Of a DNA stretch of 64,000 nt, positions 55,255 to 57,433 are shown in pieces (within the stretch, counting starts at the first letter, position 1; each line of letters opens with the position of its first letter). Source of the DNA: Actinomycetota bacterium (GTDB lineage Bacteria; Actinomycetota; Actinomycetes; Nanopelagicales; Nanopelagicaceae); contig CANFRP010000001.1 in the NCBI GenBank assembly GCA_947449535.1, positions 1 through 64,000 of the forward strand, given 5' to 3'. Position numbers and translations under genes: made by a program. The notes beneath the pieces were generated by a model that had not been told where the DNA came from, made no database searches, and was given only the letters and a program-made list of their open reading frames with translations.

Positions 55255-55863
55255 TTACTTGTCCGGGACTGAATCTGGCGAGATGACGGCCTCGGCAACA
55301 CCCTTCATCGTCATTCGGCGATCCATGGCGGCCTTTTGTATCCAGCTAAAGGCTTCTGGTTCGGACAAATTGAGTGCGGCCATCAAGATGCCTTTTGCAC
55401 GATCAATCAACTTTCGAGTTTCCAGCCGCTCATGAAGATCTGCAACCTCATCCGCTAGCGCTCGAAGTTGGGTATGACGACTGACAGCAATTTCGATTGC
55501 AGGAACTAAATCTGATATCGAGAAGGGTTTAACGACATAGGCCATGGCGCCGGCATCGCGCGCTCGTTCAACTAATTCTCGTTGGCTAAAAGCTGTCAGC
55601 ATAAGAACTGGTGCGATATCAATAATAGATTGCGCAGCAGTAATGCCATCCATTTCTGGCATTTTCACATCCAGTATCGCAAGATCGGGCTTGTACTCCT
55701 TTGCGAGTGCTACTGCTTCGACTCCATTAGTCGCCTGTGCAATAATCTCATAGCCTGCTTCGGTCAGCATTTCGACTAGATCAAGTCGGATGATTGCTTC
55801 ATCTTCAGCGACAAGAATGCGCGTCTTTTTCTTATCTGTGGCAGTTGCACCATCTGTACTCAT
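55255..55863 (-). CDS. pdtaR: PdtaR-type response regulator with ANTAR RNA-binding domain
   Basis: Two-component regulator acting on RNA. The N-terminal receiver domain (about 14-130) has Glu20/Asp21 and the phospho-acceptor Asp65 in LAILDVKMPEMDG; a coiled linker leads to the C-terminal ANTAR domain (about 138-195; RKLIDRAKGILMAALNLSEPEAF), which binds dual-hairpin antiterminator RNAs. At 202 residues it matches mycobacterial PdtaR. The ATG is only two bases after the last base of the upstream tRNA, with no room for a ribosome-binding site except inside the tRNA. No partner kinase is in the window. Confidence 0.93.
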   Translation of the reverse strand: MSTDGATATDKKKTRILVAEDEAIIRLDLVEMLTEAGYEIIAQATNGVEAVALAKEYKPDLAILDVKMPEMDGITAAQSIIDIAPVLMLTAFSQRELVERARDAGAMAYVVKPFSISDLVPAIEIAVSRHTQLRALADEVADLHERLETRKLIDRAKGILMAALNLSEPEAFSWIQKAAMDRRMTMKGVAEAVISPDSVPDK

Positions 55864-55864
55864 G

Positions 55865-55937
55865 TGCCTCGAGTCGGATTTGAACCGACACTGTGCGGAT
55901 TTTGAGTCCGCCCTCTCTACCGTTGGAGTACCGAGGC
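55865..55937 (-). tRNA. tRNA with anticodon CAA (Leu), class I form, no encoded CCA
   Basis: A complete 73-base cloverleaf: acceptor GCCTCGG/TCGAGGC with discriminator A73; D-arm with CTC/GAG pairs, A14 and GG; anticodon stem GCGGA/TCCGC with loop CTCAAAA, anticodon CAA; a five-base variable region ACAGT; T-arm GTCGG-TTCAAAT-CCGAC. CAA reads TTG (Leu), but bacterial tRNA-Leu normally has a long variable arm, absent here. A perfect TATAAT lies upstream. The 3' end is one base before the pdtaR ATG. Confidence 0.9.
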
Positions 55938-55990: not shown

Positions 55991-57433
55991 TTACTTTCGG
56001 TAAGCGGGGGCTACCCCACCAACAGCATCACCTGCGCGGTGCACGCGCATTGCATTTGTCGATCCAGGGATTCCTGGAGGTGAACCTGCAACGATGATCA
56101 CTTCTTCACCCTTTTTAACACGACCAGAATCGAGAAGAATTGCATCAACCTGCTTCACCATCTCATCGGTGTGATCAACAGATGGAGTAATCATTGGTTC
56201 GATTCCCCACGACAAGGCAAGTTGGTTATAAACATGCGTCTCTGGAGTCAACGCCAAAATAGGAATTGGCGAACGCAATCTCGACATACGACGAGCAGAG
56301 TCTCCACTTTGCGTAAATGCAATCAAATACTTAGCTCCAACAATTGCGCCAACTTCAGCCGCGGCTTTAGTAATTGCGCCACCTTTTGTATGAGGAGTGT
56401 GTCCGAGAGGTGCAATCCGATTGAGCATCGCCTCTTCTGTGCGCGCAATAATGCGACTCATGGTGAGAACGGATTCAATGGCGAAATCTCCGACTGAGGT
56501 TTCCCCCGAAAGCATGAGCGCATCGGCACCATCGAGAACAGCATTTGCACAGTCAGTCGCTTCGGCGCGAGTCGGACGTGAATTGGAGATCATGGAATCG
56601 AGCATTTGAGTAGCAACAATTACTGGCTTTGCATTTGCGCGAGCTAGCTCGATACAACGCTTTTGAACAAGTGGTACTTCTTCAATCGGCATTTCAACGC
56701 CGAGATCACCACGAGCAACCATGATGCCATCAAAAGCTGCGACGATCTCTTCTAGATTATCAACCGCTTGAGGCTTCTCAATTTTCGCAATTACGGGGCG
56801 ACGAATTCCTTCTTCATCCATGATTGCATGAACATCCTTAATATCAGCTGCGCTGCGTACAAAGGAGAGAGCGATGAAATCTGCGCCAGCGCGAAGACCC
56901 CAACGAAGATCATCGCGATCCTTCTCCGAGAGAGCTGGTACTGACACTGCTACGCCGGGAAGATTGATGCCCTTATTGTTTGATACTGCGCCTGGCTCGA
57001 TGCATTTGGTGATGACATCGTTGCCCTTAACTTCAACCACTTCGACCGTAACTTTGCCATCATCAATCAAAATGCGATCGCCCGCTTTACAATCACCGGG
57101 AAGACCTTTGTAGGTGGTACCCACACGATCCTTGGTGCCAGAGACTTCATCAGTAGTAATCGTGAAAATATCTCCGCGGGCCAAGTTGTGTGGTCCATTT
57201 TCGAAACGGGCTAAGCGAATCTTTGGCCCTTGGAGGTCCACGAGGATTGCCACTGCTGTGCCAGCTTTGGCTGCTCCCGCGCGAACTAAATCAAGTCGAG
57301 CCTGATGTTCTTCGTAGCCGCCGTGAGAGAGATTAAGCCGGGCCATATTCATTCCCGCCGCGATAATCTCATCGATCTTCTCGGGTGATTCAACAGCAGG
57401 ACCCATGGTGCAAACAATTTTCGCTCTACGCAT
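55991..57433 (-). CDS. pyk: Pyruvate kinase
   Basis: Makes pyruvate and ATP from phosphoenolpyruvate. The 480-residue protein begins RRAKIVCTMGPA and has NLSHGGYEEH, LVDLQGPKIR, the catalytic IAKIEKPQAV (Lys), ARGDLGVEMP and SGETSVGDFAIE, then a C-terminal allosteric domain (about 345-475). TAAGGT lies six bases before the ATG, so it is probably leaderless. It is followed by the tRNA-pdtaR unit. Confidence 0.97.
   Translation of the reverse strand: MRRAKIVCTMGPAVESPEKIDEIIAAGMNMARLNLSHGGYEEHQARLDLVRAGAAKAGTAVAILVDLQGPKIRLARFENGPHNLARGDIFTITTDEVSGTKDRVGTTYKGLPGDCKAGDRILIDDGKVTVEVVEVKGNDVITKCIEPGAVSNNKGINLPGVAVSVPALSEKDRDDLRWGLRAGADFIALSFVRSAADIKDVHAIMDEEGIRRPVIAKIEKPQAVDNLEEIVAAFDGIMVARGDLGVEMPIEEVPLVQKRCIELARANAKPVIVATQMLDSMISNSRPTRAEATDCANAVLDGADALMLSGETSVGDFAIESVLTMSRIIARTEEAMLNRIAPLGHTPHTKGGAITKAAAEVGAIVGAKYLIAFTQSGDSARRMSRLRSPIPILALTPETHVYNQLALSWGIEPMITPSVDHTDEMVKQVDAILLDSGRVKKGEEVIIVAGSPPGIPGSTNAMRVHRAGDAVGGVAPAYRK

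Follow-up and report, generated by a model that had tools for sequence, protein, structure and literature searches.

A class-I-shaped tRNA-Leu(CAA) as the probable UUG reader of a freshwater actinobacterium, and its short relatives in Actinomycetota

As a rule, bacterial tRNA-Leu is a class II tRNA with a long variable arm. Such class II tRNAs, for example, the bldA-type Leu(UAA) of Streptomyces and the Leu(GAG) and Leu(UAG) of the genome studied here, share with the gene described below A73, A14, a 15-48 Levitt pair, a 3-bp D-stem with an unpaired 13.22, and the decoding of leucine, whereas the short form has 5 nt instead of 13–17 nt in the variable region, C13 in place of G13, and A9 in place of G9. 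Mitochondrial tRNA-Leu(UUR) also has no long arm and is recognized through A73 and A14 (PMC9976931). In contrast, the gene described here lies on a bacterial chromosome, forms a well-paired cloverleaf and would be charged by a LeuRS that also serves class II tRNAs, and the likeness noted here is one of form. Short tRNA-Leu genes of phages (Felixounavirus fjerdesal, Bacillus phage P59, mycobacteriophage Kykar, and others) have the same core, UA-NNCC-AA...GG, an NCAGU-like variable region and A73, but they are phage-borne and mostly carry the anticodons UAA or UAG. Similarly, a mycobacterial tRNA cluster contains one Leu(TAG) with a leucine anticodon and a short variable loop in an actinobacterium; however, it is an extra copy beside the normal isoacceptor and not the sole reader of its codon (PMC6582537). 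A human Leu-CAA gene likewise lacks the long arm, but it is near tRNA-Met with a changed anticodon, whereas the gene described here has a leucine core (PMC8450103).

In the open literature, to which our search was confined (subscription papers and tRNA databases lay outside it), we found nothing that treats class I tRNA-Leu genes on chromosomes as a class of their own; the tRNA databases probably list these short genes. One CAA tRNA has been reported for each of six Streptomyces, with its shape unremarked in the accessible text (PMC4932002), and the accessible part of a review of non-canonical tRNAs contains no mention of short chromosomal tRNA-Leu (PMC7609411).

Fold of the window tRNA and the leucine-type core

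The window, that is, the whole stretch of 64,000 nucleotides analyzed here, contains a single tRNA according to ARAGORN, which is read as Leu CAA at 55864–55937 on the minus strand. Rfam RF00005 matches 55865–55937 on the same strand with 55.7 bits (cut-off 29, E 2.8e-9), which places the gene in the tRNA family. A previous sequence-only reading had described a gene of class I shape and 73 nt with a five-base variable region, the anticodon CAA, and A73, A14, and GG as in tRNA-Leu. The class I shape is confirmed here, ARAGORN and Rfam both recover the gene, ARAGORN returns the same anticodon, and all of the named nucleotides are present in the gene (Table 1).

Table 1. Features of the tRNA-Leu(CAA) locus in window coordinates
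Feature	Position	Strand	Source
tRNA-Leu(CAA) of class I shape (73 nt, CCA not encoded)	55865..55937	-	ARAGORN, Rfam
Anticodon CAA, tRNA positions 34-36	55902..55904	-	ARAGORN
Variable region ACAGU, 5 nt, positions 44-48 (long tRNA-Leu arm there, 13-17 nt)	55890..55894	-	
Leucine-type D-arm (positions 10-26) with 3-bp stem, C13.A22, A14, A15, GG, A20a	55912..55928	-	
pdtaR-like ANTAR response regulator (presumed name), conserved neighbor, used as anchor	55255..55863	- (same strand as tRNA)	
Pyruvate kinase gene, upstream of tRNA	55991..57433	- (same strand)	

The cloverleaf consists of the acceptor strands GCCUCGG/UCGAGGC, the first followed by U8 and A9; a D-stem of C10-G25, U11-A24, and C12-G23, with C13.A22 unpaired; the anticodon arm GCGGA-CUCAAAA-UCCGC; and the T-arm GUCGG-UUCAAAU-CCGAC, with A73 as the discriminator. 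The calculated folding energy is −26.6 kcal/mol (z −2.53). Because the free-energy fold places the D-stem in a different register, the assignment of this stem rests on covariation. Across 11 short homologues, both sides are changed in 13 of the 20 pairs, compensatory changes occur in every helix, and the covariation score was reached by 0 of 500 shuffles. With 5 nt, the variable region falls below the class II arm of about 10 or more nucleotides, and the gene shows all features of a short architecture, namely, a variable region of 5 nt, C13.A22, A73, and a leucine anticodon.

The reading frame next to the tRNA is presumably pdtaR, a name taken over from the sequence-only reading rather than from a family search. 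This frame and pyk abut the tRNA gene, and no integrated element or integrase was found beside it. A candidate ATG of pdtaR (window 55861–55865) is located one base past A73 of the tRNA. In one relative (L081), the pdtaR match runs into the 3' end of the tRNA, and thus the true pdtaR start is probably further in. The window tRNA may be cut out of the pdtaR message.

For the anatomy of the two forms, we compared leucine tRNAs from cellular loci, 88 distinct short sequences and 55 distinct long ones; this set leaves out L238–L265 (LeuRS) and L322 onward (phage, plasmid, and viral), and the ARAGORN reading of L159 is one base out of register. The 88 short tRNAs are uniform in C13.A22, A73, and a variable region of 5 nt. 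Their variable loop is mostly N-C-A-G-U, with CAG at positions 45–47 in 73 of the 88, and the pair 15-48 is A-U in 76, G-C in 11, and G-U in one. Among the 55 long tRNAs, 50 have G13.A22, three have A13, and two have C13; position 9 is G in 50 of the 55 long tRNAs and A in 86 of the 88 short ones. Collectively, the aligned genes indicate that the long and short forms share a leucine D-arm, with a 3-bp stem and an unpaired 13.22, and differ jointly at position 9, position 13, and the variable arm. The 11 short Leu(CAA) alleles with the Levitt pair G15-C48 are L103, L114, L122, L124, L127, L128, L130, L144, L145, L148, and L151. Since E. coli requires A15-U48, these 11 of 88 alleles indicate that some E. 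coli determinants are not kept everywhere.

In the explanation that we propose, the 5-nt loop, mostly N-C-A-G-U, stands in for the long variable arm, and a leucine-type core is retained, consisting of A14, the Levitt pair 15-48, G18G19, usually A20a, the 3-bp D-stem, the unpaired 13.22, and A73. Position 13 is C in the short form, where the long form has G.

Codon meaning and charging of the short tRNAs

The genome that contains the window (1.455 Mb in 60 contigs) is 94% complete and has 39 RF00005 matches, four of which are leucine tRNAs on the ARAGORN reading. The CAA and UAA genes are short, and the UAG and GAG genes are class II; no class II UUR-reading tRNA-Leu occurs among the 39 matches. 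As a safeguard against a gap in the draft, the same reading was made on a finished chromosome, that of Candidatus Planktophila lacus (NZ_CP016769.1, pdtaR locus L084). Its 41 matches include the same four leucine tRNAs, with UAA and CAA short and UAG and GAG long, and again no class II UUR tRNA is among them. The normal class II Leu(CAA) that the sequence-only reading had suggested looking for was thus found in neither genome. Of 25 genomes from the genus of the window, 23 contain one or more short matches above 70 bits under the covariance model R2, and the other two are 60% and 66% complete. Some low-scoring extra tRNAs with odd anticodons were also observed, namely, a second Val(GAC) and an Ala(AGC) in the own genome (L034 and L037) and a Gly(ACC) and a Val(AAC) in P. 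lacus (G264:C1:331800–331871 and L495).

In 37 open reading frames of the window (three of the 40 were omitted for overlap with another frame), UUR codons account for 473 of the 1714 leucine codons; hence both short tRNAs would be needed and heavily used. The meaning of the codons was assessed by aligning the own LeuRS with 27 homologues and counting the cells that face leucine. Leucine was faced by TTG in 289 of 471 cells, by TTA in 149 of 214, and by CTT in 317 of 492, compared with 115 of 532 for ATG and 35 of 387 for TTT as controls; the codons facing them in the homologues are mainly CTG and CTC. A smaller check of pyruvate kinase and GltB against PDB proteins, which drew on three of four alignments for pyruvate kinase and, for GltB, on nine blocks from two truncated alignments, gave leucine at 13 of 25 TTG and 4 of 10 TTA codons and is weaker for TTA. 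Collectively, the alignments indicate that UUG and UUA mean leucine in this genome and, because these codons stand at leucine positions, that the short tRNAs must carry leucine. No other tRNA that would explain the leucine meaning of UUG was found.

The sequence-only reading had also considered a different synthetase. By this account, the short CAA tRNA would be charged with another amino acid, which UUG would wholly or partly encode; the customary long arm of bacterial tRNA-Leu is in its favor, as is the human short Leu-CAA gene, which is close to tRNA-Met (PMC8450103). We consider this account very improbable. The UUG and UUA columns are leucine columns, and both codons match conserved leucine at the rate seen for CUU. 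Moreover, the leucine-type D-arm with C13.A22 is found in 88 of 88 distinct short sequences, and the tRNA of the own genome closest to the window gene is the short Leu(UAA) with a score of 39, with Met far behind as the next (17). Accordingly, a recoding of UUG was rejected on the alignment with leucine positions, and a derivation from tRNA-Met or another isotype by a switched anticodon was rejected on these scores.

For charging by the leucine enzyme, the evidence comes from the genome and from work on E. coli. The own genome has one LeuRS above the family cut-off, and we infer that this ordinary single LeuRS charges the window tRNA through A73 and the core. E. coli LeuRS can dispense with the long arm and has the determinants A73, A15-U48, G18G19, and A20a (PMC9976931), with which charging through A73 and the core would fit; these nucleotides, together with A14, are all present in the window gene. 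Leucylation, which the sequence-only reading had called plausible, is therefore the reading that we retain. In Actinomycetota, two kinds of LeuRS were compared (sets L238–L254 and L257–L265). One kind matches the own LeuRS along most of its length; the other matches only at residues about 149–590 and has a longer frame. A special LeuRS where the tRNAs are short was unsupported, as genomes with short Leu(CAA) and genomes with long Leu(CAA) include both types.

Because the tRNA lies one base before a possible pdtaR ATG on the same strand, it might alternatively be a tRNA-like leader of pdtaR, either decayed or regulatory, that plays no role in translation. Such a role seems to us highly doubtful, since compensatory changes occur in every helix and the gene is the sole UUG reader found in the own genome and in the complete P. 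lacus chromosome. Furthermore, the tRNA gene is divergent from pdtaR at the Streptomyces pdtaR loci, and its link with pdtaR is thus not leader-like. A pseudogene was rejected on the compensatory changes and the sole UUG reader. Collectively, these results suggest that the window gene is a working UUG-reading leucine tRNA of a second, class-I-shaped tRNA-Leu architecture, to which we assign a probability of roughly 0.9. In this abundant freshwater lineage, no reader other than a class I tRNA was found for either of two leucine codons.

Spread and exchange of short and long alleles in Actinomycetota

At an E value of 1e-12, the covariance model R2 has matches in 47 of 149 Actinomycetota genomes, and 41 of the 149 have matches of at least 70 bits. 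Among 26 newly fetched R2 loci, nine are CAA and 16 are UAA, and one, read by ARAGORN as Phe(AAA), resembles the UAA ones. Short Leu(UAG) genes were observed as L234, L235, and L237 in the Actinomycetota genomes G132, G137, and G134. The oddity that the sequence-only reading had seen in the short arm holds insofar as the arm departs from the class II rule; however, the gene is not isolated, given the 41 genomes and the phages described below. Judged from the genes themselves, the short form is a second tRNA-Leu architecture of wide occurrence. Such genes may be misflagged by annotation tools and by isotype models built around a long arm. No match to the window tRNA was found in E. coli genomes at the sensitivity of blastn.

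Among the pdtaR loci of the phylum, 21 of 30 have Leu(CAA) in the stretch covered, of which 10, including the window, are short and 11 are long. In the named collection, Leu(CAA) is present at 80 of 80 pdtaR loci, in the short form at 55 and in the long form at 25. In other actinobacteria, the pdtaR-adjacent homologue to which the sequence-only reading had pointed is thus short in many cases and long in others. In particular, all 17 named Nanopelagicales loci within the 80 have an identical or near-identical short gene. Since the gene is kept in 17 of 17 independent loci, a sequencing or assembly error that removed the variable arm, named in the sequence-only reading as a possible refutation, is excluded for all practical purposes; the short gene is also present in a finished genome (P. 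lacus), and its relatives show compensatory changes.

We set up a FastTree phylogeny of the flanking DNA with the tRNA removed, for 63 loci outside Nanopelagicales (38 short and 25 long). A minimum of 15 class changes is needed on this tree, every one of them forced by strongly supported branches, compared with 19.9 for shuffled labels. A tree of pdtaR only, for 49 Streptomyces and Kitasatospora, gave 16 changes versus 14.7 with shuffled labels, of which strong branches force only 7. Sister pdtaR loci are frequently unlike in their Leu(CAA) class. For S. blattellae (L120, long) and Streptomyces sp. GESEQ-4 (L145, short), the flanks are 98% identical 100–300 nt upstream and approximately 90% identical downstream, with the same hairpin past the gene, whereas the tRNA and approximately 50 nt before it are unlike. 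Near-identical flanks around an unlike tRNA indicate gene replacement and not drift. The idea that the whole 3' side of sister loci is unalignable was dropped, as many pairs in an all-against-all comparison proved homologous to either side of the tRNA.

A sample of 61 Streptomyces genomes includes 42 with a short match; CAA was read from the locus in 31 of these, G180 is UAG, and 10 are assigned by the match alone. Short UAG alleles were observed in the Streptomyces genomes G178 (L230) and G180 (L231). The bldA-type Leu(UAA) is found in 60 of the same 61 genomes, with a single match each and 86–100% identity over 83–86 nt; in Streptomyces, this tRNA keeps its class II form. Genome G023 consists of one contig; its single CAA tRNA is the single short R2 match, and the five other leucine tRNAs are class II. 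Leu(UAG) failed as a second conserved control, since a relative of the G023 gene is recognizable in only 8 of the 61 genomes; Streptomyces Leu(UAG) may be exchanged in the same way as Leu(CAA).

In Actinomycetota, the short form would accordingly be pictured as one of two interchangeable alleles, and at the Streptomyces pdtaR locus, whole tRNA genes of either class would be swapped, presumably by recombination. This exchange between species would concern a seemingly essential tRNA gene. Sister species of Streptomyces offer one gene at one locus in both a class I and a class II version, and such natural allele pairs would allow in vivo tests of the role of the long arm and of how LeuRS distinguishes its tRNAs from tRNA-Ser. 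A more speculative idea, which we consider rather unlikely, is that the minor leucine tRNA genes of Streptomyces (CAA and, as a first hint suggests, UAG) exist as exchangeable alleles whose diversity is maintained through conflict with phages or tRNA-cutting toxins, in which a class swap would remove the feature recognized by an integrase or anticodon nuclease while LeuRS, which can do without the long arm, charges both forms. If this were true, a tRNA would contribute to host range or resistance through its structural class.

Short tRNA-Leu genes of phages and plasmids

A short Leu(CAA) query from Tsukamurella matches 367 of 50,697 phage records, 173 of which cover at least 80% of the tRNA; the hosts are Mycobacterium (164), Escherichia (38), and Salmonella (32), among others. 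The phage tRNAs that we fetched are short and have the same core, with hosts including E. coli K-12, Bacillus, Lactobacillus, Enterococcus, Acinetobacter, Vibrio, Myxococcus, Synechococcus, Streptomyces, and Mycobacterium. A strict short-form pattern, which by design selects short ones, is present in at least 120 IMG/VR stretches; of the Leu tRNAs that ARAGORN reads there, 132 are short and 2 are long. In M. smegmatis, tRNA-Leu-CAA serves phages as site attB-11 and is complemented by the Leu-CAA that phage Gaia carries (PMC10865867). The attP region of Minerva, classed as an Omegavirus, matches the 3' half of a short Leu(CAA), which implies that the M. smegmatis Leu(CAA) gene is short. On plasmid 5 of Tsukamurella (L331 601–690), a site-specific integrase gene begins 15 nt after a short Leu(CAA).

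The abundance of phage matches, the attB-11 site with the gene of Gaia, the Minerva attP region, and the Tsukamurella plasmid would suit an origin of the chromosomal short genes from phages, in which replacement followed integration into a host tRNA-Leu (tRNA-dependent lysogeny) instead of loss of the arm in place. We regard this origin as a possibility of some weight but do not favor it. The swapped stretch goes down to the tRNA gene and approximately 50 nt, and no firm integrase was found close to the Streptomyces loci: a piece of the Tsukamurella integrase matched 3 of 214 loci weakly, and a PF00589 search of 20 genomes, in which the position relative to the tRNA was comparable in two only, gave nothing firm. 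Of two PF00589 matches in P. lacus, the closer one lies approximately 68 kb from the tRNA, which does not mark this locus as a phage attB site. Phage traffic could supply alleles for the exchange of whole tRNA genes.

Exceptions are also present among the neighboring phage tRNAs. An Enterococcus phage carries a long Leu(UAG), and phage BeanWater (L456 446–520) carries an odd short Leu(GAG) with a D-arm unlike the short-Leu core.
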